A stretch of 64,000 nt of DNA from NCBI GenBank assembly GCA_032622095.1, contig CP136061.1, positions 189,912,369 through 189,976,368 on the forward strand, in the 5' to 3' direction. The translations under genes and the position numbers were made by a program. The notes beneath the pieces were generated by a model that worked only from the letters and a program-made list of their open reading frames with translations, was not told the DNA's origin and searched no databases. Each line of letters opens with the position of its first letter. Position 1 is the first letter of the stretch. Shown here piece by piece: positions 21,626 to 63,346 of this stretch. This stretch comes from Siphonodentalium dalli (Eukaryota; Mollusca; Scaphopoda; Gadilida; Siphonodentaliidae).

Positions 21626-22237
21626 TCACAAAGCAGAATGATCAACTGGCTGTAGGTTGGTAGGGGCTCGATTAAGAAGTTGACGTATCACTGGATGGGA
21701 AGTATGTGATTCATTATTGATGGGAGAGTTACTCCTTGAGGGAGAAGAATCATATTGACTGCAGGCCGCTGTAGGTGGCCATGATTTAACCACAATTGGA
21801 ATCCTCATACCAGTTTGTTTTGAAGGCGTGTGGTGCTCATCATGAGATTTTGCTATTTCTTCTTCTGTTGGACTATTCTCGGAAGAGCAATCTTCTGTTG
21901 GTTCAGTTTCAGACTTGACCAGGTTCTCTGTATAAACAGTGGGTATTGGTGGTTCGTTAGTCGGATTAACGAGTGTTAATCCCGTAGCAGGTTGTGATTG
22001 TGCAGATGGGGGTAAGTATAGTAACGTAGTTGGTGCTATAGCATGTACTGACGATGTTGTTATAACAGGTAAAGACACTGGTGCTATAACAGGTACTGAT
22101 GCTGGTGCTATAACAGGTAGACGCACTGGTGCTATAACAGGTAATGTCGATGGTGCCATAATTGGCAATATTGTCATTGGAGCATGTGAAGTGAAAGCTG
22201 CTTTTCTAATCCTTGCCCGCTTATTCTGGAACCATAC
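21626..22237 (-). CDS. Double-homeobox gene exon 6: homeodomain 2 recognition helix and C-terminus
   Basis: Acceptor AATTTGTAG|GTA. It opens VWFQNKRARIRKAA (positions 47-60 of homeodomain 2) and runs 203 codons to TGA at 21628-21626. After the homeodomain come five octapeptide repeats of LPVIAPVS type, then LLYLPPSAQ...ATGL (about 432-447), paralogous to exon 4, a VKSE motif, an acidic/Ser segment and a polar tail. A possible poly(A) signal lies at 21003-20998. Confidence 0.86.
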   Translation of the reverse strand, partial: VWFQNKRARIRKAAFTSHAPMTILPIMAPSTLPVIAPVRLPVIAPASVPVIAPVSLPVITTSSVHAIAPTTLLYLPPSAQSQPATGLTLVNPTNEPPIPTVYTENLVKSETEPTEDCSSENSPTEEEIAKSHDEHHTPSKQTGMRIPIVVKSWPPTAACSQYDSSPSRSNSPINNESHTSHPVIRQLLNRAPTNLQPVDHSAL

Positions 22238-25200
22238 CTACAAATTGAAATATTATTGATCAGACTGATAACGGAAAGCTGGGATTGAAAATGTCAGAAA
22301 CATGCAAGGCTCTTCCATATGCAAATTATTTAAGTCTTCCACATAAACATTTGTATATACAGTAATAATAATAAATCATTGCACATCTTCAATGTGTCGA
22401 GAAGGGGTCAATAACTCTAAATAAAATAAAAAACATAAAACATTTCTGTCAAAAAATGGCAATAACTCTGCTAAAATAACTCCAACTGAACTAAAAATCG
22501 CTGGTGCACAGGTTCCCATGCTGGTTGACATCTGTGCCAAATTAAAAAACAATTGATTGGAAATGACGGAATACAGGCTCGGACAAAAGATGCGTCCCAG
22601 GATGTACGATTCTATGTCGAAAAACGTCAATAAATATGTATGCTAGCATTCAACTAACCCTGATAGTGTCATAGGGAATATCAATTTCGTCACTCAATTC
22701 TACCATCCTGTCTTTACTGGGGTAGCAGTTATTGTTGTAGCAGATCCTCAGCCTGTTCAGCTGTACTTCAGAGTAGGCCGTTCTGGCCTTCAGTTTGCTT
22801 ATGGGTGACATCATTGCCCGTGCTGCTTTCACATTGGTGGACAATTTATTCACCTTGATCACACACTCTGTCATTGGGCTATCCTTAGGCGATGGTCTGA
22901 TATTGTCAACTTCCGTAGATTCCAATGGTTCACTCTTGATGTGCTTGGTTGCTAGAAAAAAACGTGTTAACTTAAATATATGTCTACAGATAATGTGCAG
23001 TAATTCTGTAAGAGGTCAGATGAAGTAAACATAAATACTGTGTTCTCAGGCACTTCCTTCTTCCCCAAAAGAGAGCCTCAACAAAATATTTTATTTACAT
23101 ATTTATCCATAATGGACCTTTCCACAGCTATGTATCAAATAATTATTTGCAGATATTTTCTACCAATCAGCAGCAGAGCTGGTCGCTTGCTGCATTGGAA
23201 ATTCTTTGTTCACCCTAATTTTGATATCTTATCACCTTTGTTTATTGTCAAAACAGAATGTACTGAAATTTTGATTTGTGGAAATTCATCCCCGACTATA
23301 AAACTATTTTTCATTTTGTGTGACACTTAGTCATATTTTACACAAAGACGAAAAAAATGTACTAGTATGTTCTTGGGTGTATTATACCATATACAAAATG
23401 TGGGGAAGCAATGTAGATAGAACGCAAGAGACGGTAAGAAACGAGTGGGCGTTAGTGCACAAGTTTCTTACCTAAACGTCTTTCGCCTCGAGTGATTTAT
23501 TTACCGGTAATGTAATTCTCGGAACTAATTGATTACTCTATTTATTACACTCCTGCATCAATTTGGATCGCATAATTATATTAAAACACCCAGAAATAAT
23601 GCATAAAATCCGGATGTGGAGAAAGATCAACCATTGAAAATTCAATCTAGATCAGTAAGCGACGAAATGCCAATGATGTCATGAGAAATAATATAATTCA
23701 CTAGTGAAATTACCTTTTTTAATTAAAGCCATTTTCAATGGAAATCGCGCATAGGAGTGTAATAAACTAATTAACCCTTTACCCAACAGAACGGCCCTGT
23801 GCCAATGAATTCTCTTATATATGCGAGTCGTCCATAGGTCGCCTCGCATATATAAGAGAATGCATTGGCTTAACACATATTAAAAATGATAAAATTGTCA
23901 AAGAATGTAGAAAAATATTATAAAAATTGTTAAAGAATGTAAGAAAAAATGGTAAAAAGTGTTAAAAAAGAATTGTTTTAGGCCAGTGCATTCTCTTATA
24001 TATGTGAGGTGACCTATGGTCAACTCGCATATATAACAGAATGCTTTGGCACAGGGCATAACTGTAACCATCACAATGTGGTCAATGAACCGGTTCCAAT
24101 GATATCCATATTTGTATGGTGTTATTGAGACAGACCGAAGATATTTTAGGCTGTTGAAGCTTTATTTGGGCGTTTTTGGCCATTTTGTTGGGTAAAGGGT
24201 TAAACTATTTCTACAGATGCCTTGTCTTGTAGCTGATTATTCAGCTCGTAATTTCAACAAAGAGCAAAAGGATGTTTGTTGATAATTTAACCCTTTCTTT
24301 ACTAAACGGATTTTCCCATTTAGTTACAAAACTATAGATTATTATTCATCTGGAGGGATGCTCAAGAAAAATGAGCAGACGACAGACAGACGAACAGATA
24401 ATGCAAGTGCAAATGTATTGCCTTTCATTAATTGGAAATGTTTAAATAATACCATTAAGTTCAACAAACAGCATATGGCCATTTGTTGAACTTATTATCT
24501 GAACATTTCCTAAGGGAACTATTTATCAATGAGTATTTAGTATAGAAAGGGTTAAACTGAGCTCAAAATACCTAGAGATGAATCAATCAGAATCAAGTGA
24601 CTAGCCAGTTATCAAAGGGTTAACCCTTTCAGTGCCAAGTCCGATTTTTGTATCAACCCATATTTCCTTGATCATTTTTCAAATTTATTGATTATAATAA
24701 TGTGATACATTGATGGAAAGAGCTCTTAGAGTTGATACAAAAATCGGACTTGGCACTGAAAGGGTTAAATGACTTTTCTAACCTGCAATTTGCATCTTCG
24801 TGAGGTTCAGACATAGGCTGTGTGCATGTTTCAACGAGCAGTGTTGCGAACTTTTGTCTGATCTGCTATGGCAATGGACTGTTTGCTTTCAAGAGCATGC
24901 TTCTTCAGCATTGCCAAGAGGGCACAGTATGTGTTCTAAACACAGTTTGGTCGATAAAGTTTATGGTTATACTGACCTGGTGAAGAGATTGTTTGGTCAC
25001 ATGGACGGATTTCTTGTTTATCTGTATGTTGTACTTTGGTGTTCACTGTCGTTTCAGCAAATGTGCTAGCTACTGGTACTACACTTGGTGAGCTAGCATA
25101 ATTGCTAGCATAATTCAATCCTGTTGCCAATTGGGGTACCTGGGCAACTGGTGGTATATAGAGTAACATCCCAGGTGATAGAGTAGGAGGCATTGTCATT

Positions 25201-28200
25201 GTTCCCATCACTGGCAGTGGTTGTGGGGTCTCTTTTCTCCTAAATTGTCCACTGGCATGCCTTGCTCTCTTGTTTTGGAACCAAATCTATAATTAGTAGT
25301 TCATCTATTAATATAGTGCTATAAGGGTGTATATGAAATGACAATGTATAATGTTGACCATGTGACATTTCTTTGGTATCAGCACATTGGGTTGGTAGAA
25401 AACATGTAACAATGACAGTATTATGTAAATATTGCCACAAATTCAAGATATAATACAAATAATTTTAGCTTATCTTTTACTAAAAACACTGTTTGTGAAA
25501 AGTTAACTGGACCTGAAAATATCAGACTAGGGTGGGTGGATCGGCCCAAAGCAGTCCAGTCCACATCACTAATTTTATCTTACTGATTTTGGTCAAGACT
25601 TAATGAAATGAAAGTGTCAATGACACTGTAGCTCAATGTTGATGGGATAATTTCAAGTGTTACAGCGATTATAAATGCAGAAAGTTCAAATGTCTAAGTA
25701 ATACTAAATGTCAACATGTAGAGATATACATGTATATAAAGTAAAAATCCACGATGGCTGCTGGTGGCCATGTTTTCCAATTAAATAAAAAAATTTGTGG
25801 CTCCCATCCAGTGGTCACCCCAAAGATCAATATGATGTTTGGTGACGAATGGATGAGGGATGTCTTCTATAGGGTGTGCAAAAGGGTTTAGTCATGCAAA
25901 GAATAAAATCCAAGATGGCCACTATCAGCCATGTTTTTCATCGGAATTCAGATAAATTTGATGCCTCCAATCTAGTGGTCACCCAAAAGATCTGTATGAA
26001 GTTTGGTGATGATTGAATGAGGGACGTGGTCTGTAGGGTGTGCCAAATCCTAAAGGATTTAGTCATGCAAAGAGTAAAATCCAAGATGGCTGCTGTCAGC
26101 CATGTTTTTCATTGAAATTCAGTCAAAATAGCAGGCTCCCATCTAGAGGTCACCCTGAAGATCTATAATCTTTAATGCTGCACCAGCGAAGCTCTCGTCA
26201 TGAAAGGGTTAAGAAGAATGGACAACTCAGTGATCAGACAGTTCACGTGTGCAATGGACCAATCAAAATCAGACAAAGAAAGCACTATCATCAACTATCA
26301 TAGTATATTCACTTTTGACGTGCAGGTCTGAATGGAGTGCGAAAGGATTTAGTCATGCAAAGAGTAAAATCCAAGACTCTGGCAGCCAAAATTTTATTCC
26401 TTCCATCTAGAGGTCAATCAAAAGATCTGTATGAAGTTTGGTGATGATCGAATGAGGGATGTGGTCATGCAAAGAGTAAATACCAAGTTGGTTGCTGGCA
26501 GCCATGCTTTTCACTGAAATTCGGTCAAAATAGGAGGCTCCCATCTAGAGGTCACCACAAAGATCCATATGAAGGTTGGTGACGATCGGATGAGAGATGT
26601 GGCCTGTAGGGTGTGCCAAATGATTTAGTCATACAAAGAGTAAATTCCATGATGGCTGCTGACGTCATGTTTTTCAATGAATTTCGGTCAAAATAGGAGG
26701 CTCCAAGCTAGAGGTCATCCTAAAGATCCATATGAAGTTTGGTGATGACCGGATGAGGGATGTGGTTTGTAGGGTGTGCCAAATTATTTAGTCATGCAAT
26801 GAGTAAAATCCAAGATGGCTACTGGCAGCCATATATTTCACTGAAATTCGGTCAAAATAGGAGACTCCCATCTAGAGTTCACCGCAAAGATCCATATGAA
26901 GTTTCAATCTCTACCAGAGCGCACCAGTCATTCCTTTCTGACTGTCACCGGCTGGGTACCAGTCTGTGGTTTCTATATTTAGAGTGGGGAAAACCGATCG
27001 CCCCAAAGTCAAATTTCATATGCGCTTCGAGAACAATTCCTGCGCTAAAAACTTAATGATAGAATGGAGAATCAGAGCGGTAGTTTTGTTGATGATTTTC
27101 GCAAGCTACTCGTCAAAATTGCAGCAAATTAGAACTCTTGTGTTTGACTTGCTATGAATGTTGTCATCCATGTGCGTTTAGACATTTGTGTCGATAAAAT
27201 AATCGGAGAACCAAATCACATCATTTCGCAATATAGTTCTTTGGTTCTAGTGGGACTTTCCAAACTTAAATTACGAAATTACACAAATTTTATCTGATAT
27301 TTTGTGTGCTTAATGAGGGCAGAATGTTGCTACGCTAGCTTAGTATATATCTTAATATCGCGGAAATCCACCAAATGTGGGTAAAATGTCACCAGCAGCA
27401 GCAGCAGTCTTACCAATTCATCAATGGAAGTAAAACCTGCATGGTTAGATGAAGTTTGGTGATGATCGGATGAGAGATGTGGCCTGTAGGGTGTGCCAAA
27501 GGATTTGGTGGGAGAGGGGGGTACCCATAAGTGAGTCAGCACTTGTCCTCCAATCCCATTGTCTGTATATACAATGTTTGTGTCATATATAATATGTTAC
27601 ATAAATTAGACAAATAAATATGTTTAAACTAAAGGATTTGGTCACACAAAGAGTATATTACAAGATGGCCGCAGGCTTCCATGTTTTTCAACAAATTTCG
27701 GTCAAAATAGGAGGCTCCAAATCTAGAGGTCATCCTGAAGATCCATATGAAGTTTGGTGATCATCAGCTGAGGGATGTGGTCTGTAGGGTGTGCCAAAGG
27801 ATTTAGTCATCCAAAGAGTAAAATCCAAGATGGCCACTGACGGCCATGTTTTTCATCAAAAATCGTTCAAATTTGATAGCTCTCATCTGGAGGTGAACCT
27901 AAACATGCCTGTAAAGTTTCAAAACAATTCTCCATTAAATGCGGGCTGCAGGGTGTGCCGATTGATTCAAATTTGAAATCGAAGATGGCTGCTGGTTATA
28001 GCTCCAATTTACAGGTCACCGTGAAGCTACATATGAAGTTTGGTGAAGATCAGATGAGGGATGCGGCATGTAGGGCATGTCAAAGGAAATTTTGGACACA
28101 CGCATGGACACACTCACACACGGACGATGGACGCCAACCCATTTGTAAAGTTGAGCTAAAAAGGTTATTTTGAAAAAATCTATATTATATCTCATTACAT

Positions 28201-31200
28201 AATATAAAATAGATTAATTAAAATCCTTCCTGTTCAGGTCAATAGTGTATGAGTGTTTTGCATGTGTAAGATCATTTGAACTACATGTTCTTTAGGGAAT
28301 AGTCATGCTCTGATCAGTTTTAAATGTATATATATACATGTATATCTCACTGACCTTTATATGTTGTACAGAACAGCCGACTTCACAACTCAAATTTTCC
28401 AGTACCTCTCTGCTGGGATATGGATTTTCTTGAAATGAGCGCCTTAATTTCTTGACTTGTTGAACAGAGTAGTTCGTCCGGCGGTGTCTTCTTATTTGGT
28501 CATCACAGGGTACATCTGGGACAACAGGTGTATCCAAGCTTGGTTCGCCCTGATTATTTTCTACTATATCTGATATCTGTTGTGAAACCGATACAGAGTC
28601 ATGATTGTGAGAAGTGCCATTGGTTAGATATTCAGTTGTCAAATTATTTTCCACTGATGATAAGTTAGTGTCATCTTCAGAATAATGAGTGTCCTCTTCA
28701 CTGCTATCTGCTGTTGATGTTGCTATGAAAATAAAAATCTAGCCTATTTGAACGTCCCTATTATCAGCTGAGCATCTCTCTATCCTCTCTACACACAAAC
28801 AACAACTTGCAAAGTTCATTTTTTATTTAATTAACCCTTCCATGAATTGAGCTTCCTGAAATTTTGCGAAAACATGCCAATGCATTCTCTTATAAATGCG
28901 AGTCTCCCATAGGAAGACTCGCATATATAAGAGAATACAGTAATGCCCTAAATAATCGACTCCTTAACCACATCAGAATTATGGGTAATTTTTCAGGATT
29001 TAGCTGGAAATATGGCTTATTGCCATTCATCGGAAAGCTCTCAGTGACACGGGGGTTAATTGACCTGGGGAGTATCATGAGATAGGTTCTGTTGACATTA
29101 GCTGTCTTGAAAGGCACTAATAATTAATTTAATTAAATAATTAATTATATACCCAAAATAGTTGTAATCTGGTTGTTGAAAATTGATTCACGGTGAGGAG
29201 TGCCATGTGATTGGTGCTGTTGACCTCAGGTGAATTAAACGGGCACTATTAAACAGGTGTAAACTGACCTGGGGAGTACCATTGGATAGGTGCCATTGAC
29301 CCTATAGGGCAACTTAAAAATTATATTAATTTTATTATTCTAAATCTGTATTTGAATGTCCATAGAGGGAAAATAAATACTGTTTAAACTATAAATTATA
29401 TTATCATATATGAGCATTGAAGAGTATTTCTTTTCAGCTTAGATGATTTGCAGGAAAATTGGTATACAGGGGTCACATGATCAGGGGAATATCATGGGAT
29501 AGGTGCCTTTGACCTCAGATGTCATAAACGGGGACTAATAATTTATAGAACATAGATGATAAATGAAGACCATTTATTATTGGCTCAGAAGATATATGGG
29601 CAAATTGGCACAATAAATAGTGTTTAATATCAACTTAAAAGATAGAGGTAACTTCATCTGGAGATTGTCATGCAGTAGGTGATGTTTACCTCAGGTGACT
29701 AATAATTAATTTAAATGACTTGAAGGGGCACTAATAATTCACTCATTCTTTACCCGAGCAATGCTGAGTACCCCAGCTAGTATTCCATATAAATGAATAG
29801 GTAAACATATAAAACCAATGACTTGAAGGGGCACTAATAATTTACTCATCCATTACCTGAGCAATGCGAGTACCCAGGTAGTATTCCATATACACAAATA
29901 TATAAAACCAATGACTTAATTGTTAGATGGTAATTTATTTTTGAAGAAATAAGGCATATTGGTGTACAGTAATGCTCTAAGTATTCGACTTCTTAACCAC
30001 AGCAGAATTATGGGTAACTTTTCAGGATTTAGTTGGAAATATGGCTTGTTGCCATTCATCAGAAAGCTCTCGGGGCTATTCATCGGAAAGCTCTCGGGGA
30101 GAGCTTTCCGATGAATGGCAACAAGCCATATTTCCGACTAAATCCTGAAAAGTTACCCATAATTCTGCTGTGGTTAAGAAGTCAATTACTTAGAGCATTA
30201 CTGTATGTTGTGTGTTGCCAATCTTTCTTACAAAATGTATCTGTCTTTCTTATAAATGTTTACTTTTGGCAGGTCATAAATATGCTTGATGATCAGGTAT
30301 TTTAGGAAGAAGCTTTCTTTGTGAAACTGTTTTCTTTATCTGGCCTAACCAGTTGATAACAAGAGCATCGCTAGGGCGTGGCAAAATACGCCCTTTAGCC
30401 ATTTCGAATTGTACTACCGCAAAATAAAATAATACTTTGAGCTTACATTTGAAGAATATCTAATATACCCCTAATTTCAATGCCAATATGTGGTCAAATT
30501 ATAAGTCGAAAAATGGCCGTGACTCATTCGAAATAATTAAACAGAACCTATATTCGAACTTGGCCTGTCGTTTTAGCTGGAAAATACACATACCAACTTT
30601 GGTTCAGATCAAATAATCCAAACTGGAGTTATCGGTCGGAAACCAAAAATGTTTACTGACGGTCAAATTCTAAGTCGAAAAAGGACCGTAACTCATGTAA
30701 AAATAATTGGACGGAACCCATATTCGAACTTGGCCTGTATCTTTAGCTGGGAAATACACATACCAACTTTGGTTCAAATCAAATAATCTAAACTGGAGTT
30801 ATCGATCGGAAACCAAAAATGTTAACGGACGGACAGATGCCCGGACGGCTCAACAGACGGTACGACAGATGGATGGACTGATTACATAATACAATTTTTT
30901 TTTTTAAAGGGCGTATAAAAACACAGAGATAATCGATAATGATTTAAACAGGTATCAAGTTAATATTGGGCTAACTTATGGTACTGCATCAGATAATCTC
31001 CAAACTCAGGACATTTTTCAGAAAAATAAATCAGAATTATTTGATCTAATTTTATGAGAATAGATGAGCAAAAAAGCTATACAAATATAAGAAATGAACG
31101 TAGTGTCTCTGTGTATTATTGAGGAAGACGGCGCTGCGACCATCAGGCACATTTAGTGTCAACTAACACAATGTAAACACTGGGCATAAAACAATCACAC

Positions 31201-34200
31201 ACTAAGTTCATGACACATTAAGCATCACACCCAATAGTCCAGTCAACATAGGGTTTGACTAGACAAAATTTGTACAGAAATGATTTTATAATTTTTAGAA
31301 TCAGTACACAATTCCGATCAACATAACAAAACGACATTTCATAATCGAGCATATTCTGGGTGTACCTGATATTGGCAAATTCAGTGATTATCGTCAAGGG
31401 TAGGGTTAGGTATAGGGCATATGTCGCTACAGTTTTGGAGAAAAACTGGTCCTAAATGATTACTCATGCCACATGGATCACCAGTCATGGAATATCATTG
31501 CGCTTAAAATCAAAATAGCATCCAAAAGGGACCAAATAAAATAAAAGGTTGCAGACCACATGTCCCCCGACTCGAGTGGTAAACTTCATGATTGGATTTG
31601 TTAGAAGGATACTATTTGCAACAATGTTATACAGTATATAGATGTTGCAAACCACCGCAAAATTTCTTGGACAAAACAACCCGATGAACAAACGCATACA
31701 AACGCGAAAAAATGATATTTTTGTATTAGCTATATAGATGTTGCAAATCACCAACATGTTAGGAACAATATCCCAGAGTTTCAAATCTCTACATTTAAAA
31801 CTGTAGGAGGAGTTGATTACACCATGAAGATACCCAATCTCATCCAAAAGGCAAAAATGTTCCAAATTTTCTAAGTCGAAAACCCCCCAAAAATATGGAA
31901 AAAATGATATTTTTTATTAGCTATATAGATGTTGCAAATCACCAACATGTTAGGAACAATATCCCATAGTTTCAAATCTCTACATTTAAAACTGTAGGAG
32001 GAGTTGATTACACCATGAAGGTATCCAATCTCATCCAAAAGGCAAAAATGTTCCAAATTTTCTAAGTCGAAAACCCCCCCAAAAATATGGAAAAAATATA
32101 TTTTTGATTAGCTATATAGATGTTGCAAATCACCAACATGTTAGGAACAATATCCCAGAGTTTCAAATCTCTACGTTTAAAACTGTAGGAGGAGTTGATT
32201 ACACCATGAAGGTACCCAATCTCATCCAAAAGGCAAAAATGTTCCAAATTTTCTAAGTCGAAAACCCCCCCAAAAATATGGAAAAAAATTTATTTTTGAT
32301 TAGCTATATAGATGTTGCAAATCACCAACATGTTAGGAACAATATCCCAGAGTTTCAAATCTCTACGTTTAAAACTGTAGGAGGAGTTGATTACACCATG
32401 AAGGTACCCAATCTCGGACGCACGGACGCACGGACGCACGGACGCACGGACGCACGGACGCACGGACGGACGGACGAGGGTCATTTCTATAGTCCTCCGA
32501 CGGAAACGTCGGGGGACAATAAAATTTACACTCCTATAAAAGTGAACAAATGCTCGAATTGGAAAAATAACAAGTTTTATTTGCGTTATTTAGTGTCAAT
32601 CATGTGATATATGTGTAAATAAACAGTTAATGGTATTTAGTTGGGATCTATGGATTATGTGACCTTTTCTAGAAGCAGAAATATATGTGTTCAGAGCAGT
32701 ATCACGAATGTGACCGATCATCGTTTATTTTGATATCTACATAATAAAACCTTTCGAGATCAACTCCTATAGAACAGTATGCTATATATTCATAGAGTAC
32801 TGGGTAAAATGTGTAGATCATATTGTCCCTGTCTCAAAATAGTAGTCATATTTGCCTCCGATCAAGTGAAGAAACATGCATACTTCGCTTGTATCACAAG
32901 AATGCATGGTGGTATTCTATGAACGCAATTATCAAAACACAAAGGAGTATCATAGACTATCTTCAATAAATTCTAAACTTAACCAAAATAGCCTACATAT
33001 TCTGGTTATATTCGCCAATGCGACATATACCAGAAAGGTACATGTACTACGTTTTCTGCAACTGCATCAACGCGTTTACCCATACTCCCTAATGATACAT
33101 ATATCTGCTGCAAGCAAAACCATAAATAGCAACATTGAGTGAATTGTCAATGCTGATATAACAACTTTATACACTGATCAACTGATATTTAGCACATGTG
33201 GTGGTATTGGCAAGATATTTAAAAAAACAAGATACTGAAAACGAATATTGTGCATTGCGCAGTATCATAATCCAGTTGTAAAGTGCCGACTGAAGTCATT
33301 TAAAGGTACTCAATCCGAACAGAGGGTCCCCATCTCAACAGATTCCAACAACAACAATCCGATCAGAGGGTCCTATATTACTATTTCTTTGGCTTTGGGG
33401 GTAAAAAATATTTGATTCGAGTCGAGGAACCCATCAAACAAAGCTCAGAGTTATTAGATATTGCTTTTTGAAATTTGTTATTTACTCGAGATGAGTACTA
33501 ATAATTGCCTTCAACTACCGTAATATGCTCGGGATGTGTACACCAAAATCTATTCAAACAGACAAGGATGGATAACTCTAAAATCAAGTGGTAATAATAA
33601 CGCAATTTTGACTGAGTTCTAGGCCAGAAAGTATTCCCGATAATGAAAAATAATAGATTTCTAAAATCGATATCTAACAAATCTGAGCTTTGATGTGTGA
33701 CTTCCTCGACTCGAATCAAATATTTTTGACCCCCGAAGCCATTGAAATAGTAATTGAGAGGAGTTTTATCGGATTGAGTACCTTTAAATAAAACTGTCTA
33801 CTAAGAAACTGGTTTGGTAGCAGCACGAAAATTAGTCTTACATAAATTGTATGATGTGCCATCTCATTGACCTGGTGTGATGGGGTGCTAATCTATTGAA
33901 GAAATGAGTGTTTCTTTATAGTAGTACATATAAGCATGCGACATACATACATGGTTTATTATCACAGAGAGCATTGAAAATTCTGGAAATGTAACCAGTA
34001 TGTATACGGCAAGGATATGCACTTCAGTTTCTGCGTTACATTCAACAATTTATCGAATGAAACTACCACACACATTACTTCATGTGCTGCATACCTGAAA
34101 TTATTATTTTTGACCCGACTGTTGGATATTCATATATTCCAAGCAGAAAACCCAAACTTTTAAAGACATAAATCATTTGGCTTTATTTCTGTTGCAGTGA

Positions 34201-37200
34201 CCTATAAATCCTTCAGATGGCATTAACTAGAGGTGTGACTGTCCCAATGGGACTAAGGATACCCCCCCCCCCCCCCCCCCCCCCCCCCGTGTTTTAAAAT
34301 ACTAAGATGTTTCACATGTCAGTAAACATTTAGTTAAATAATAAAATAACAGTTCCCATCCTACGGATGAATAAACTATTAATAAACAGGTATTAACAAG
34401 GAAATTTTTTGCAGGTGCACAACCCTTACCCTAATCTTAAACCTATTGACCGAAAAATGTAGGAATAAAAGCTTGGACAAAAATTGTGCATGTTGCGAAA
34501 ATGTTCTAAGTCGAAAAAGGGAGATAACTCCACAAAAAAAAAGTCAGACAGACATCATAATCGCAGGTGCGCAGGTTCTCATGGTACTAAATATCTGTGC
34601 CAATTTTTAAAATAATTGACCTAAAAATGTAGGAATAAAAGCTCGGACAAAATTATACATGTTGCGAATAATTTTCTAAGTTGAAAAAGGGGGGATAACT
34701 CCACCAAAAAAAGTCCGACAGATGATATAATCGCACAGGTTTCCATGGTGGTTGATGTCTGTGCCAAGTGTCACGGAAATTGATAAAAAAAACGACTGAG
34801 AAAAACTCCGGACAAATTTGTGTCCACGGACGGACGATGGACGGATGGCACGACAGACGAATGGACAAGCTGATTCCAGTATACCCCCCCGCAACTTCGT
34901 TACGGGTGGTATAATGAGCTGTGTACCTTTAAAGCTATTTAACAAGAGACTTGTATATTACCAACACATATATTTTGTACTGAAGACTCTCCTGTCTTTT
35001 GACATCAAAATTGCTTTCTTACCATTTTCTTCTGGGTTAACATATCTTTTCGCATTCCACAACCATACTATCAAATGTTTTGAACTCCCTATGATCTCTG
35101 CAGCTTCATGTCTAATCATGATGCAATTAGAAATTCATTTCCTTCATTTTGAATATTATGACACAGCCCCATAACAGAATTCTACCGAAAACTCACATGG
35201 GTACTACCAGAAACGATGTCAGTTTTCATATTTTGCACACAGATCTCGTGGATGATTTTTTATATGTGGTGTGCAAAAGGTCCCCTCACATCATGAATAT
35301 AATTTCAATTCTGTACAAAATCTAGGTTAATAGGCCATATTTCTCGTATTTTGACTGGACTACAACCAAGTGCATATCTGACATCATAATACAGGAAAAT
35401 GAATAATACTATAGTATACATGTTAATATGATGCCACCCCCCCCCCCCCAAAAGGTTTTGGTTCTCAGGCCCCGCCGCATTGAATAAAAAGGGCCGCATT
35501 AGGCATTTTTATAGCAATGCCTGATGTTATGACAAAAAAACTTACAAAAAAAAAATTTATATTATTTTTTTTAATTTTATCAACATGTCCATAGCAGATA
35601 TGTGTTAAATATTAGTGTGAATTGAGCTCTAACATATAATGGGTTAAAAAGTGACTTGCAGGCTTACAACATGAAGTAGATGACTACAATTAAGAAAATG
35701 ATTAGCAGATCCTCATGATCTTCTTTCAATTAGTCATTGTGAACAACTTACACTAATTGTAACTTTATACAATTGAAAGGCACAGGACTAAATTCAGGAT
35801 CACATATTAGAATGGGGAGGTATCAGTTTTCAGACAACAATAACAGTAGTTAATGTCAGGGGCATTATATATTGTTAGGTAATCCCAGTCATACACTGGT
35901 AGTACAATGTCATTTTTATATAAGACTAAATGAGTTTATATGCATAACAGTTCACTCTACCTTTCTGGTTATTACTAGACAGAGGAAGGTATCTTTGTCC
36001 ATGCTTACTATGTGCAGAATAAATAAAAAATAAAAATAAAACCCTCCCTCCCTCATTGATTTGAAAAAAAAATTGCCCGAGAACCAAAACACTTTTTTTT
36101 GTTTTGCCTTACCAGGGAATCTATATTTATTTTGAAATTTAGCCCCAACTAAGTGGTGGATGTTTTTTTATTTCCATCTACATGTACTTACTGATGCTGT
36201 CGTTGAGGAGAAACTTTTTGTCTTCAGGAGATAGTGGGTCAACGTCTGTTCTTTCTTCGATCAGACTACGCTTCTGAAAAATGCAGCATGAAATTTTTTT
36301 ATTCTCATATTATATTTTCTGAGTTGTACATTTCAAATTATGCCAAACTGAACTTAGTTGAAAAGAAAGATTTCTATTATTATATCTTTATTATCACTTT
36401 TCTCTGTCCAGTATCACAATTTTCCCAGCCATTAAGAGACGGTAATGCTCAAGTTACTCAAAACATCTGGTAACACCGATTTCAACTTGATGCATAGGGC
36501 CAGTAATTAGCTGTCAACTTACTATTGGCTTTACTCGTTACATGACTGGCACAGTAATGCCCTAAATAATCGACTCCTTAACCACAGCAGAATTATGGGT
36601 AATTTTTCAGGATTTAGTCGGAAATATGGCTTGTCATTCATCAGAAAGCTCTCAGCTTTTCTAATTCCATCGTTTTATGGTGCGAAGTATGTCATTGTGC
36701 TCATGACTAAAATGTAGACATCACGCTCCAAAACTGAGTTCATTTATCTATTATACGGTATATTTTGGAACTTCTATCTCTATGTATGTATGTGTGTATG
36801 CGTGTTATAGACTCGAAAACTGCTCGACCAATCCAACTCAAATTTGGTATGTAGGCATACTTTGATCCCGGGAACAATATGGGTGGGTCCAATTTCTTGT
36901 GCGACTGTGTTCTTGACCTTGCTCATATATGCTCATATAGGCATGTTTCTGGACCGATCGAACAATAATATTTTTCTTTCTCCTGATACTTTTCAACGTT
37001 GTTTGCTCAGTATTCTTCAACGTTGTCACTTTGAATTAGTAGATCAATCTCTCATTGTCAATAGTTTTCTCAATATTTCTTTTTCTTTCTCTTAAGACTT
37101 AATACTTTTCAATGCTGTATATTCTGCCCAGATGGAGTCGATCACAAAGAAATCCCTAAATAGCCTGGACGAAGATGGGCATATTAGCTAGTTAACCTCT

Positions 37201-39760
37201 TCGCTGCTATGACGTCCGTAACTATTACGGACGTAAAAGTGCACGCCGTGTGCTATATGGTCCGTAGATACTACGGACCTACTTCAGCACACTAGAAGTA
37301 GGCCATTATACATAACTGGAACTCAGAGATTAGTGCATCGGAATAACTGTATCTCTACGTTTCAAAAAGTGTATGATGTCCCACGATTGTGAACGATAAT
37401 AGCTTTCAGCTGAGTCAGTTGTATGGTTCTTGTGACATTCCCGCTATATTTTCCCATTAGAAAATGCCAATAACGTCAACAGCCCAGCACACGACGTCAT
37501 AACGTCATTTAGCAGCGAAGAGGTTAAGATATATTTGAATAGAATTCGAGCATTTTCCCCTGTCATTAATTGAAAACCTTAGGTTATTAGATTAACTAAT
37601 ATTGCAGTTAAATTTATGTTGTTTTTCATTCATCAACTCAAAAATGTGATTAGCCTAACTAGTCTCTTTTATTAGGCCCGGATGAATCTGAAAAGCTGGC
37701 TACATATGTGATCGCCATAGAAAAGCTAGGTACAATTTAAAAAGTTGGTTACGAATGTGATTGATGCCTTGTGACAATGACCCCATCAGTGTTAATAACT
37801 TAATGTTCTAATAGAACACAATGCATTCCTAAAGAATGTTACTGTATTGTTATATTAGGAAGAGAACTGCTGCCCAAAAGTTGAGAAGATAAAATAAAAA
37901 GATATCTTCCAAGATCTTTGTGGTGATGAAATGAGTCGGAATAATAAATTTCCTAGATGTAAATGGAACTTTTTCATATTCTCCAGGTGTGGCACAAACA
38001 AAATACAACTATTATACCCTAGAGCTCGGAATTATTAAAGGTACTCAATCCGATTAGACGCTCCTAAATTACTATTTCTTTGGCTTTGGGGGTAAAAAAT
38101 ATTTGATTCGAGACGAGGAACCCACCCTTCAAAGCTCAGAGTGATCAGATATCGATTTTTGAAATGTGTTAATTTTTGGAGATGTGGGCCACTTCCCCGT
38201 CCCAAACGGACAAATTGCGGGTGTAAGATGGATAACTCTAAAATCAAGTATTTTTTACCCCCGAAGCCAAAGAAATAGTAATTTAGAAGCGTCTAATCTG
38301 AGTACCTTTAACAAATCTTGTACCTATTAGTATTAGTTTTGCTGAATTGTCAAGTTTGCACGTGTGCATTTATTAGAGTACCCAGAACATTGTTTAGGGT
38401 ACCCAGAATCTCTGAAACCGTTTTTTTTATTTAGTGTATCAAGGACCTCAAAATATCGCTCAATTAGGGCCCTGTGAATCAGCACTTTTCTGCGGATTTG
38501 AAATCCAATATCAAATTTGGAGGCTGATGTTGAATCAAATCTGCTAGCCGCCGATGCATTGTATAGGTCTATGATGGGGAAATTCAAAAATATTCAAATC
38601 AGGAGTCATATTGGGTTGTGACATCAAATCAAATCTAAAATATTTCTAATCCATTGTATTTAATTCGCACCCATTTTGACTAAAATAAAAAAAAATTCAA
38701 TATCATTTTAAGTGTTTCTCATTCAACACCAAACCCCTTGCAAATTTCGTTACCAGCCTCTTGACCGACATTATATTCTTGGATTAGCCTCAGTCGGCTA
38801 CTAGTACTATCCTTAGAACCATTTTCTGCCTGAGACTCATGAAGTTCACCATGCACATGTTGGTTTCATAGATCCAACTTTCCAATGAAATAGCAGTTCA
38901 ATTAAGGGACCCAAATCGGCATCTTTGTCAATGTCAATATGCAAACCCAAACCTGACAGTCCTATGAATTTTCATTGGTACTGTATCAGGCGTTCTTTCA
39001 CAAATATCTGTCTGTAGATGACTCTCAAACCGGTAGATACTCTGGCTGTAGACCTACATGTGCTTCAATTGCATCAATGTTTTTTGTACGTGACCATTAT
39101 AGTTATTTTCAGAACTATAAGATTGTTAAAGTCCAAAACAGTGAAAACTAAATTGTTTGACGTTACATCGGTTATCTCGTTTGTGAAGAGCTGAAGAAAA
39201 ACATTTGTACCCGTAGTTATGAAATATTCCGGAAGTGAAAATTAAGCAGGTACATGTATGTTTTTACTTAAGTATAAATAATTATAATAATCATGTCTCC
39301 CAATTTCGTTCCAAAGAACTGGCCATAAAAATGCATGGGTTGGCAACTAAGCTTCCAGTTGGAGGTGGTGAAAACCAAACTCACTGTTGGATGTATTGAG
39401 CGAAACGAAGATTTGGAAAAACGTGAGGCCTCTTATACCCTCGAGTGTGGGGGGCGCTCGTTTTGGCAAAGCCAATCAGAGATGCCTGCACACCTGAGGC
39501 CAATGAGAATCAAGCTTCCATATCGCCGATGGACCAAAAAGTTGACGTGGTGACTATACTGTTCAGTGGTCAGTTATACACATACCATAGTACACATAGT
39601 ACCGGAAAACATTTTAGAATTATTTTGAAATCATTGGCATCTTGTTGTCTTTTTGATAGAGGTCGCCTGTTGATAAAGTCCGTAGCAATCATGTTATGAT
39701 TGCCAATTATCATCAGATTCAAAATGTACTCACTGTTTTTTCTTCAGAACCCTCAATCAT
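21626..39760 (-). CDS. Double-homeodomain protein gene, six-exon model
   Basis: Predicted nuclear DNA-binding transcription factor of 563 residues, assembled from six exons: 39760-39734, 36273-36192, 28722-28355, 25286-24977, 22951-22659 and 22237-21626. Every junction has GT/AG signals and matching phase (0, 1, 0, 1, 0). The order is a Ser/Asp/Glu-rich N-terminus (about 42-56), homeodomain 1 (114-173), a Pro-rich linker, homeodomain 2 (315-374), octapeptide repeats (392-431) and an acidic/Ser-rich tail. Both homeodomains keep L16, W48, F49, Q50, N51 and R53. Canonical SUMO-type sites (IKSE near 267, VKSE near 467) are visible. The 46/47 intron is typical of PRD-class homeoboxes, and the NPYPS...IWFQNKRARH stretch recalls DUX-like domains, but I cannot assign a family. 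Exons 3-6 are strong. Exons 1-2 rest only on splice signals and phase. An alternative is two separate single-homeobox genes. Confidence 0.72.
22050..22160 (-). repeat. Coding 24-base minisatellite in exon 6
   Basis: GGTGCTATAACAGGTA-type units spaced 24 bases on the plus strand encode on the minus strand five octapeptides, (L/V)PVIAPxS. It is within the reading frame, so length changes keep frame. Confidence 0.85.
22380..22640. repeat. Intron 5 remnant of an AATAACTC-type element
   Basis: CAATAACTCT, AAATAACTCC, GGTGCACAGGTTCCCATG and CTCGGACAAA match the repeat at 34.43-34.82 kb in inverse or degenerate form. It fills most of the 421-base intron. Confidence 0.5.
22659..22951 (-). CDS. Double-homeobox gene exon 5: N-terminal part of homeodomain 2
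   Basis: Acceptor TTTTTCTAG|CA, donor AGG|GTTAGT. The first bases (CAACC) match the start of exon 3 (CAACA), and the phase is the same. It encodes TKHIKSEPLESTEV, a spacer, then homeodomain positions 1-46 from KLKARTAYSEVQLNRL to YDTIR. L16 is present, the aromatic at 20 is Tyr, and YPS occurs at 25-27 as in homeodomain 1. The phase-1 entry joins exon 4 (G + CA gives Ala). Confidence 0.87.
23771..24203. mobile_element. MITE, TTAACCCTTTACCCAACA ends
   Basis: 18-base perfect terminal inverted repeats bound 433 bases. It contains two GCATTCTCTTATATATG-type hairpins shared with the TCATGA family. Lies in intron 4 of the double-homeobox gene. Confidence 0.8.
24287..24555. mobile_element. MITE, TTAACCCTTTCTTTACTAAA ends
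   Basis: Imperfect 20-base terminal inverted repeats bound 269 bases, with TTAA at both ends. An internal hairpin surrounds GCATATGGCC (AAGTTCAACAAACAG and inverse). Intron 4. Confidence 0.75.
24620..24768. mobile_element. MITE, TTAACCCTTTCAGTGCCAAG ends
   Basis: A 149-base element with about 37 bases of perfect inverted repeat at each end and TTAA at both borders. Intron 4, about 200 bases from exon 4. Confidence 0.85.
24977..25286 (-). CDS. Double-homeobox gene exon 4: homeodomain 1 recognition helix and linker
   Basis: Acceptor AATTATAG|ATT, donor CCAG|GTCAGT (phase 1). It starts IWFQNKRARHASGQFRRK, completing helix 3 of homeodomain 1, then a Pro/Met/Thr-rich linker with LLYIPPVAQ...ATGL (about residues 200-216). 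If the donor is not used, the frame reads 13 more residues to a stop at 24936, giving a possible single-homeodomain isoform of about 275 residues. Confidence 0.85.
25741..28150 (+). repeat. Tandem-core element in intron 3
   Basis: About ten degenerate units of 160-175 bases with CCAAGATGGC(T/C)GCTG, GCCATGTTTTTCA, AGGTCACC and GAAGTTTGGTGATGATCGGA. It ends with GGACGATGGACGCC. Interrupted by a MITE right end (about 26167-26212) and unrelated sequence at about 26900-27440. Confidence 0.8.
26167..26212. mobile_element. MITE right-end fragment
   Basis: CTTTAATGCTGCACCAGCG through TCATGAAAGGGTTAA, matching the right end of the 17.3 and 19.9 kb elements; the left part is absent. Confidence 0.6.
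28355..28722 (-). CDS. Double-homeobox gene exon 3: N-terminal part of homeodomain 1
   Basis: Acceptor TTTTCATAG|CA, donor AAG|GTCAGT. It encodes a Ser/acidic segment (ADSSEEDTHYSEDD) and then homeodomain positions 1-46, starting RRHRRTNYS with L16, F20 and NPYPS at 23-27, ending QHIK. Position 40 is Cys rather than the usual Leu. The exon ends exactly between homeodomain positions 46 and 47. Basic RRHRR at the start of the domain probably serves as nuclear-localisation and minor-groove arm. Confidence 0.88.
28831..28935. mobile_element. Truncated TTAACCCTTTCATGA-family MITE
   Basis: Starts TTAACCCTTCCATGAATTG and runs through the first hairpin, then is cut at 28936 by the TACAGTAATGCCC foldback family. 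Confidence 0.65.
28936..29050. mobile_element. Single arm of the TACAGTAATGCCC foldback
   Basis: Only one of the two arms is present, ending GGAAAGCTCTCAGTGA. It abuts the 28831 MITE and the 29.05-kb repeat. Confidence 0.65.
29051..29886 (-). repeat. Tandem-core element, reversed ACTAGCTGGGGTAC end
   Basis: Degenerate units with CCTGGGGAGTA(T/C)CAT, GGATAGGTGCC and TTGACCTCAGGTG occur near 29067, 29197, 29273, 29486 and 29659. On the minus strand it begins with ACTAGCTGGGGTACTCAGCA (29781), the counterpart of the start at 3781. A second copy of the end is at 29853-29886. Confidence 0.6.
29965..30205. mobile_element. Palindromic foldback MITE, TACAGTAATGC ends
   Basis: Two inverted arms of about 105 bases around a centre with duplicated CATCGGAAAGCTCTCGGG. 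Same family as 19352. Confidence 0.8.
30386..30916. mobile_element. Tandem-core element with ATACGCCCTTTA inverted ends
   Basis: ATACGCCCTTTA at 30386-30397 and its inverse at 30905-30916 bound two direct copies (about 30500-30670 and 30671-30830) of a block with AACTTGGCCTGT and AACTGGAGTTATCG, followed by GGACGGACAGATGCCCGGAC. Confidence 0.65.
30917..31557. other. Non-coding, intron 2
   Basis: No element or gene that I recognise. Confidence 0.45.
31558..32518. mobile_element. Tandem-core element with TGTCCCCCGAC inverted ends
   Basis: TGTCCCCCGAC (31561) and GTCGGGGGACA (about 32507) bound four direct copies of a 191-192-base unit starting TTAGCTATATAGATGTTGCA at 31725, 31917, 32108 and 32300 (the last truncated). 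It is followed by (GGACGCAC)n at 32417-32475. The minus-strand frames spaced 191 bases are repeat by-products. Confidence 0.85.
32519..33298. other. Non-coding, intron 2
   Basis: I see nothing supportable. Confidence 0.45.
33299..33788. mobile_element. MITE, TTAAAGGTACTCAATCCG family, both ends
   Basis: Starts TTTAAAGGTACTCAATCCG and ends CGGATTGAGTACCTTTAAA. Inner arms share TATTTCTTTGGCTTTGGGGG and its inverse. No ORF of note. Confidence 0.8.
34261..34288. repeat. Poly(C) run of about 28
   Basis: An uninterrupted C tract; length may be unreliable in sequencing. Confidence 0.9.
34430..34900 (+). repeat. Two-copy AATAACTC-type repeat with GGACGG tail
   Basis: Two direct copies of a block with AAAAATGTAGGAATAAAAGC and GTCGAAAAAGGGAGATAACT, about 180 bases apart, ending GGACGGACGATGGACGGATG. 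Same design as the 30.4 and 31.6 kb elements. Confidence 0.7.
34901..36191. other. Non-coding, intron 2
   Basis: Contains a C run at about 35438. The 118-codon frame at 34818 is partly repeat and has no domain. Confidence 0.45.
36192..36273 (-). CDS. Double-homeobox gene exon 2
   Basis: An 82-base exon with acceptor TTTTTCAG|AAG and donor ATCA|GTAAGT. It reads KRSLIEERTDVDPLSPEDKK and then FLLNDSI; the other two frames stop at once. It ends in phase 1, exactly what exon 3 needs (A + CA gives a Thr codon). The charged peptide has no domain I recognise. Intron 2 downstream is about 7.5 kb and full of repeats. Confidence 0.55.
36551..36655. mobile_element. Single arm of the CAGTAATGCCC foldback
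   Basis: One arm only, ACAGTAATGCCC through GAAAGCTCTCAG, slightly diverged. Located in intron 1. Confidence 0.6.
37192..37527. mobile_element. MITE, TTAACCTCTTCGCTGCTA ends
   Basis: 18-base perfect terminal inverted repeats with TTAA at both borders bound 336 bases. Inner palindromes include GTCCGTAACTATTACGGAC. Intron 1. Confidence 0.85.
38035..38311. mobile_element. MITE, TTAAAGGTACTCAATCCG family, complete
   Basis: Starts TTAAAGGTACTCAATCCG, ends GAGTACCTTTAA. Arms of about 65 bases carry TTTCTTTGGCTTTGGGGGTA and its inverse. The shortest complete copy in the window (277 bases). Confidence 0.82.
38312..39733. other. Intron 1 without recognised elements
   Basis: Includes two CCAAT words (39467, 39500) on the plus strand, but no gene starts nearby on that strand that I can support. 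Confidence 0.4.
39734..39760 (-). CDS. Double-homeobox gene exon 1 (start codon)
   Basis: The exon encodes MIEGSEEKT. The ATG has G at -3. The frame is closed upstream by TAA about 54 bases 5' of the ATG, so this ATG is the natural start. The exon ends ACA|GTGAGT, phase 0, which fits the phase-0 acceptor of exon 2. It is only 9 codons long and has no homology support, so it is the least certain part of the model. The 5' UTR and promoter would lie to the right of 39760; I see no convincing core promoter there. Confidence 0.42.
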
Positions 39761-62639: not shown

Positions 62640-62761
62640 AGCAGATATATAAATATGTACATAACAAAAACATATACTCATTTGCAGTCCTTAAAAAAAT
62701 GTACTTAATTCCAGCGACATGTATTTCTGGTCGAAGAACTTTGACAAAAATAGAACAACTC

Positions 62762-63346
62762 TCAGTAAGATGGACACCCATGTATATGGATGTACGGCAG
62801 ATTAAACTGGTTAACCAATTGCTGTTGCGATGACATCGAGGCGGTGGTAGAGGGTTGTTGGTAGTCAACCTGGTTATAGCTGTGTGTGAGCCCTGGTCGA
62901 ATGCTGGGCGGTGAAATGTTTGCTGGCACGTAATGGTTGTAGGACATCGGATATAGGTTCGCCGGAGGGGATTCCTTGTATGGATTGTGTTCTGACGTCT
63001 GCGTTTGATGCAATTGGATTGGCACACCGGGCTGACGGTCGAACTTCAATGGCTCATCCTGGAGCGATGTGGTCTCATCGTTGGTTTTCGGATGTTTTAT
63101 TGGCTGTTCTTCTGTGGTTTCTGACGACGAACTTGATTTCAATGCTGGAGAAGCTCCACTCGAGTACCAGTGTGGTGAAGTGGTAGGCGGTGGTGAAATC
63201 TGCTGGTAAGTCGGTACGTACTGGTGGAATGGTGGCATCATATGCGGCATGGCGAGTGGTAGTACCATTGCCTGTGTCGACGGCGTCCAATCTACGTCCG
63301 TGACCTGCCTGGTTCTTTTTCTCGCTCTTTTGTTCTGGAACCATAT
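62762..63346 (-). CDS. Second homeobox gene, terminal exon (partial gene)
   Basis: The frame starts IWFQNKRARKRTRQ, that is homeodomain positions 47-60 with W48, F49, Q50, N51 and R53. It continues as a Pro/His/Tyr/Ser-rich tail (MPHMMPPFHQYVPTYQQISP and onward) to TGA at 62764-62762, 194 residues in all. The rest of the gene should lie to the right, beyond the window or the RT fragment at 63.7 kb. Its start at position 47 matches the 46/47 intron of the double-homeobox gene, and the WFQNKRAR helix is shared, so the two are probably related. The expected acceptor AG is replaced: a good pyrimidine tract ends in CAT, not CAG. The gene may be damaged, use another acceptor (TTCCAG|AAC, losing four residues) or carry a sequencing error. 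Confidence 0.8.
   Translation of the reverse strand: MWFQNKRARKRTRQVTDVDWTPSTQAMVLPLAMPHMMPPFHQYVPTYQQISPPPTTSPHWYSSGASPALKSSSSSETTEEQPIKHPKTNDETTSLQDEPLKFDRQPGVPIQLHQTQTSEHNPYKESPPANLYPMSYNHYVPANISPPSIRPGLTHSYNQVDYQQPSTTASMSSQQQLVNQFNLPYIHIHGCPSY

Follow-up and report, generated by a model that had tools for sequence, protein, structure and literature searches.

Exon anatomy and likely origin of a candidate PRD-like double-homeodomain gene beside a homeobox cluster in a lophotrochozoan genome

The window (the whole stretch of 64,000 nucleotides that was analysed) carries four homeodomain-coding exons on the minus strand, here called A to D, with two elements with terminal inverted repeats lying between B and C. 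The earlier note had described two homeobox exon pairs in the same orientation that join in one frame, and the exon edges, the phases and the frame were found as described, as were the phase-1 donor of exon B and the phase-1 acceptor of exon C. The features are as follows (window positions; splice junctions are marked by a slash).

29296-29269, minus strand: weak candidate for a first coding exon, 9 codons plus one base, with a phase-1 donor (CAG/GTCAGT)
28722-28355, minus strand: exon A, 368 nt, coding for an acidic N-terminal region and residues 1-46 of homeodomain 1 (HD1); phase-1 acceptor and phase-0 donor (AAG/GTCAGT)
25286-24977, minus strand: exon B, 310 nt, coding for residues 47-60 of HD1 and a tail; entered in phase 0 (weak acceptor), with a phase-1 donor (CCAG/GTCAGT)
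24976-24936, minus strand: read-through of exon B to a TAG, used only without splicing at the B donor
24620-24768: TTAA-ended element of 149 bp whose 38-bp terminal inverted repeats match perfectly
23771-24203: TTAA-ended element of 433 bp whose 26-bp terminal inverted repeats are 92% complementary
22951-22659, minus strand: exon C, 293 nt, coding for residues 1-46 of homeodomain 2 (HD2); phase-1 acceptor after TTTTTTTCTAG and phase-0 donor
22237-21626, minus strand: exon D, coding for residues 47-60 of HD2, a repeat-rich tail and the C-terminal block MRIPIVVKSWPP

Joined, the four exons give a single open frame of 527 residues without a stop (including one G from a presumed preceding exon), which ends at the TGA of exon D (21628-21626) and is interrupted by introns of 3,068 nt (A-B), 2,025 nt (B-C) and 421 nt (C-D). 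HD1 occupies residues 78-137 and HD2 residues 279-338, separated by a linker of 141 residues. The Pfam domain PF00046 matches the joined protein (526 residues searched) in two stretches (E 3.7e-33), and PF05920 (Homeobox_KN) also matches over the first homeodomain stretch (E 4.4e-12). Both homeodomains are 60 residues long with no loop insertion, retain W48, F49, Q50, N51 and R53, and are split in phase 0 at the same point (K46 and I47 in HD1, R46 and V47 in HD2). Many, not all, PRD-class genes are described, in the accessible part of the source (PMC2211742), as having an intron that separates codons 46 and 47 of the homeodomain, and both homeodomains here have it. A six-frame scan with a homeodomain model built here recovered the pieces in A to D and a second-half exon near 63346, all with at least 10.8 bits; the rest of the window gave at most 9.0 bits (the flanks were also scanned). 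The tail of exon D contains a coding minisatellite of 24-nt units (22031-22161, minus strand) that encodes repeats of the LPVIAP type and is possibly polymorphic.

The A+B and C+D units align by blastp with 29% identity over 176 residues (E 9e-18). The tails of B and D compared on their own score 35.0 bits, against 28.1 for the best of 500 shuffles (0/500 as good), in an alignment that reaches to within two residues of the exon B donor. These alignments show that A+B and C+D are homologous to each other, and that this extends to their tails. A further relative, gene N, lies on the same strand 32 kb downstream (C1:189901988-189896962) and has one homeodomain, split in the same way. Gene N and exon D have in common the C-terminal block MR[IV]PIV[IV]K.WP (41.6 bits, with 33.5 as the highest score among 500 shuffles), which is lacking in the A+B unit; the tail of gene N does not match that of B, as 394 of 500 shuffles were equally good. 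The tails of the type I and reg2 genes compared alongside do not have the block either, and its absence from A+B is therefore only mild support for a fusion. In the homeodomain tree (see below) HD1 and HD2 are not sisters, and a tree constrained to join them is worse by 1.0 lnL (p-AU 0.215); hence, the units may be long-standing neighbours and not each other's most recent copies.

Splice sites were scored with a donor/acceptor matrix built from splice-site frequencies taken as general background. On this scale the exon B donor (6.13) is within the top 0.11% of the 3,590 GT sites of the minus strand, and a phase-1 site as good anywhere in the 351-nt frame of B is expected with p ~0.007; the remaining donor-like sites of that frame have values of 1.53 (phase 0) and 0.34 (phase 1). 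For a control, all donors in the open frames of 16 second-half exons with the motif [IV]WFQNKR were scored: B has 6.13 and the other 15, of which 7 are near copies in one cluster, all have 3.68 or less, this best control value being that of the type I genes and also in phase 1. The exon C donor is in the top 3% and its acceptor in the top 5.8% of AG sites, the exon D acceptor is middling (17% of AG sites are as good) and the exon B acceptor is poor (43% score equally well). By eye, a phase-1 acceptor at the first-half homeodomain exon is also found in gene N (which has two possible acceptor sites, both phase 1), in a reg2 gene and in one unit of the C6:156 array described below; therefore, exon C needs a phase-1 partner.

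Upstream of exon A, the best phase-1 candidate for a first coding exon is the weak one at 29296-29269, which sits in a local repeat (family D8/D10). The ATG at 39760, the far edge of the region singled out in the earlier note, was rejected as a first exon: its donor (score 2.7) is in phase 0, so that no in-frame join to the phase-1 acceptor of exon A is possible. A conserved short exon (peptide LLFDDSIDVNSISLGDVSFPLDS) precedes the homeodomain exon in the reg2 genes and in a type I gene (C1:189981715), and a tblastn search for its homologue upstream of A gave nothing convincing. A scan of reg2 for ATG-led phase-1 exons was also discarded, since it returned one worthless match, the reg2 short exon not being ATG-led. 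The window also has a 191-bp tandem repeat (31706-32415, 3.7 copies, 97% matches), followed by an 8-bp CGGACGCA repeat that runs to 32476.

The genome (2.23 Gb in nine contigs) has a Hox cluster on C7 that includes a Lox5-type gene, recognized by KLTGP following the homeodomain, a motif that we take to be of the Lox5 type. The animal is thus a lophotrochozoan, in agreement with the invertebrate genome suspected in the earlier note. Genome searches scored the best candidates only, and the counts that follow are therefore lower bounds. The locus adjoins a homeobox cluster of 0.33 Mb (C1:189.98-190.31 Mb) in which at least 24 further first-half homeodomain exons, related, of two types and in mixed orientation, are spread over C1:189980931-190304866; several of these are identical in length and score, which suggests recent duplication. 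At least seven more relatives are found at C1:220.67-220.76 Mb. Within the window, positions 62700-63346 (minus strand) contain a type I second-half homeodomain exon (IWFQNKRARKRT), the first half of which seems to be outside the window, at C1:189981077; the bases before this exon are TTTTCCAT, whereas its near copies carry the AG of an acceptor at this place. A single-homeodomain relative at C1:189907680-189908881 seems to change frame inside the homeodomain, in its first homeodomain exon, and is perhaps a pseudogene. Two arrays were observed on C6. One (C6:156350826-156496033) is a head-to-tail PRD-like homeobox array of at least 33 rows, mostly spaced by ~4.2 kb, macrosatellite-like and with a layout reminiscent of DUX arrays; one of its units (L018) has a split homeodomain with IWFQNKRYRSK in the second exon, a stop and an AATAAA. 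The other (C6:167238319-167380353) is a TALE-type tandem array of at least 21 rows, mostly with a 275-residue open frame, in one unit of which (L019) the frame is without introns and has WFANKRNR near its end.

The earlier note had called the NPYPS...IWFQNKRARH stretch DUX-like. NPYP and IWFQN.RARH do resemble DUX, but kinship is unsupported: HD1 has 36-39% identity to the two DUX4 homeodomains and HD2 31-32%, lower than to paralogues of the same genome (up to 48% for HD1, with a paralogue at C1:220.73 Mb, and up to 43% for HD2). Nor did a homeodomain tree that includes DUX4 bear the suggestion out. This tree is weak, with 34 rows, 60 columns and long branches (L016, L019, L020, L024, L026, L031, L033, L039, L042-L046 and L053 were left out of it). 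Both HD1 and HD2 fall into a group of 12 rows together with divergent clusters of the same genome (94/94, not starred), and the DUX4 homeodomains are on the other side. The group includes one row labelled CUT and is apart from nine rows labelled canonical PRD, classes that we presume from recognition. Forcing HD1, HD2 and DUX4 into one clade costs 11.3 lnL (AU p = 0.094), so that the joint clade is not formally rejected. In a PDB search, the best domain score of HD1 was to an engrailed construct (36.7 bits, versus 36.3-36.4 for DUX4 entries), and among single-domain chains engrailed also came first (43.6 versus 37.6). When the whole genome was searched with each unit, there was no close paralogue among the best candidates scored: other homeodomain rows reached at most 44% and 41% identity, and further rows of the 41% search, with up to 50% identity, are low-complexity tail matches. 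The layout itself is similar, since the DUX family also has each homeobox split at the equivalent position and four exons in all, but the homeodomains here are not closely linked as in DUX4 (141 residues against 15, the DUX4 matches beginning at 20 and 95 in 5z6z) and do not cluster with those of DUX. Considering the grouping with same-genome paralogues, with DUX4 outside, and the difference in linker length, the double-homeodomain layout is most likely convergent with DUX, of separate origin.

The double-homeodomain gene of the earlier note stands as the best-supported reading of the exon anatomy, its basis being splice signals and homology. Alternatively, the locus would hold two adjacent genes with one homeodomain each, A+B stopping at the TAG (24938-24936) and C+D having its own promoter, a non-coding or short first exon and translation from a Met in exon C. 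Some features agree with such an arrangement, which we hold unlikely, if well worth weighing. Each of the relatives that were read, namely gene N, the reg2 genes and one unit of the C6:156 array, carries a single homeodomain. Exon C has four in-frame Met codons, three of them before the homeodomain, which could begin a single-homeodomain protein, and exon A has none. The 116 residues of the B read-through fall inside the range of the second-half exons of relatives (68-203 residues to the stop), so that B is plausible as a terminal exon and A+B could be a gene of its own. From the B stop to C there are seven AATAAA/ATTAAA motifs, the first at +247, where base composition alone would give about four, and a donor of 4.66 at 23472, the sole one of any kind scoring at least 4 in the B-C gap, is found inside a short palindrome (by eye). 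No convincing start exon precedes A, and the B acceptor is weak. However, the B donor would then be an accident (p ~0.001-0.007) seen in 0/15 relatives, and the gap (1,443 nt of other sequence once the two TTAA-ended elements are discounted) yielded no ATG-led phase-1 coding exon whose donor exceeds 3.2, as scored with a slightly different matrix that gives B 5.2. A separate first exon for HD2 between 24977 and 22951, named in the earlier note as fatal to its proposal, thus has no good coding candidate.

Decay is another matter to consider, as one or both units could be degenerating pseudogenes in a fast-changing homeobox cluster. The neighbour at C1:189907877 shifts frame within its homeodomain exon and the second-half exon at 63346 has AT where relatives have the AG acceptor, but at the present locus 527 codons run without stop or frameshift, GT and AG are found at every joint and the invariant homeodomain residues are retained in both units despite only 29% identity, making decay very improbable. 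Descent from DUX itself, either as a true orthologue or as a horizontally acquired gene, has the motifs NPYP and IWFQN.RARH, the 46/47 introns and the unrejected joint clade in its favour. Yet both homeodomains are nearer to same-genome paralogues, the exon D tail is common to the neighbouring gene N, the linker has 141 residues against the 15 of DUX4 and DUX doubles are described, in the accessible part of the source, from placental mammals and as sDUX-derived (PMC3004920). We give such descent hardly any credence.

For the double-homeodomain gene, what is seen directly is the order A-B-C-D, the matching phases, the homologous units, the intact homeodomains and the single, terminal C-terminal block. 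We infer that the locus is probably a PRD-like double-homeodomain gene that arose in this lineage. In this scheme a single-homeodomain unit would have been duplicated in tandem, and splicing would cross the junction, from the phase-1 donor of B to the phase-1 acceptor of C, to give one protein with two DNA-binding domains. With the homeodomains on a 141-residue linker, such a protein might bind a pair of TAAT-type sites, either cooperatively or by bridging them. A+B measures 678 nt and is in phase 1 at both ends, a symmetric cassette whose skipping would give an in-frame isoform with one homeodomain; the gene could make both forms, with two homeodomains when A+B is included and one when it is skipped.

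According to the accessible text of Leidenroth and Hewitt, the intron-containing DUX genes (DUXA, DUXB, DUXC and Duxbl) have two homeoboxes over four exons with equivalent splits, and the proposed origin of DUX is the joining of two tandem sDUX copies by deletion or by read-through or intergenic splicing (PMC3004920). The splicing model suits the present locus, where a stop is still visible right after the B donor. The locus differs from those four genes in a longer middle intron (2,025 nt, or 1,443 nt if the two elements are discounted; the reported mean is 634) and in its lophotrochozoan host. The earlier note knew two-homeodomain proteins mainly from mammalian DUX; mouse Crxos is a second mammalian case, likewise a duplication-born PRD-like double-homeodomain gene, but it is a eutherian ETCHbox gene (PMC5787275, compared by description only, from the accessible text). 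As for the claim that no named invertebrate counterpart exists, it holds for PRD-class doubles in the open-access literature searched, where those found, as far as the accessible text of the sources goes, are the mammalian DUX (PMC6118893) and Crxos (PMC5787275). It does not hold for multi-homeobox genes at large. These are rare, the accessible text of one survey naming Hdx, dve/Compass, Zfhx, Zhx/Homez, amphioxus Muxa and Muxb, mammalian Dux and TALE-IV (PMC6118893) and that of another adding HOCHOB and a Dictyostelium group (PMC4901127); of these, TALE-IV, Muxa/Muxb, dve/Compass, Zfhx and HOCHOB are invertebrate genes in print. The spiralian TALE-IV genes are, like the present candidate, lineage-restricted two-homeodomain genes of lophotrochozoans (PMC6118893), but belong to the TALE class, whose loop is extended by three residues that neither homeodomain has here. 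The lophotrochozoan PRD clades I-VIII are similar as divergent PRD-like homeoboxes, although the accessible text of their descriptions, on which the comparison rests, has no double-homeodomain member (PMC5322547, PMC6118893). Gene N is like the present gene in its phase-1 acceptor, split homeodomain and C-terminal block, and unlike it in having one homeodomain.

DUX drives embryonic genome activation. We lean towards regarding this locus as an independent, non-mammalian birth of a PRD-type double homeodomain by intergenic splicing in a homeobox array under active duplication; its read-through stop, middle intron and skippable symmetric cassette would still be present. Such a birth would raise the questions of whether the B-C junction is used, at which stage, and what the linked pair binds that the skipped single-homeodomain form does not. 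If true, the locus would be a living case on which the fusion model put forward for the birth of DUX could be tested, and a further origin in another phylum, by duplication followed by splicing, would make the double-homeodomain layout a repeatable outcome of PRD-gene arrays.
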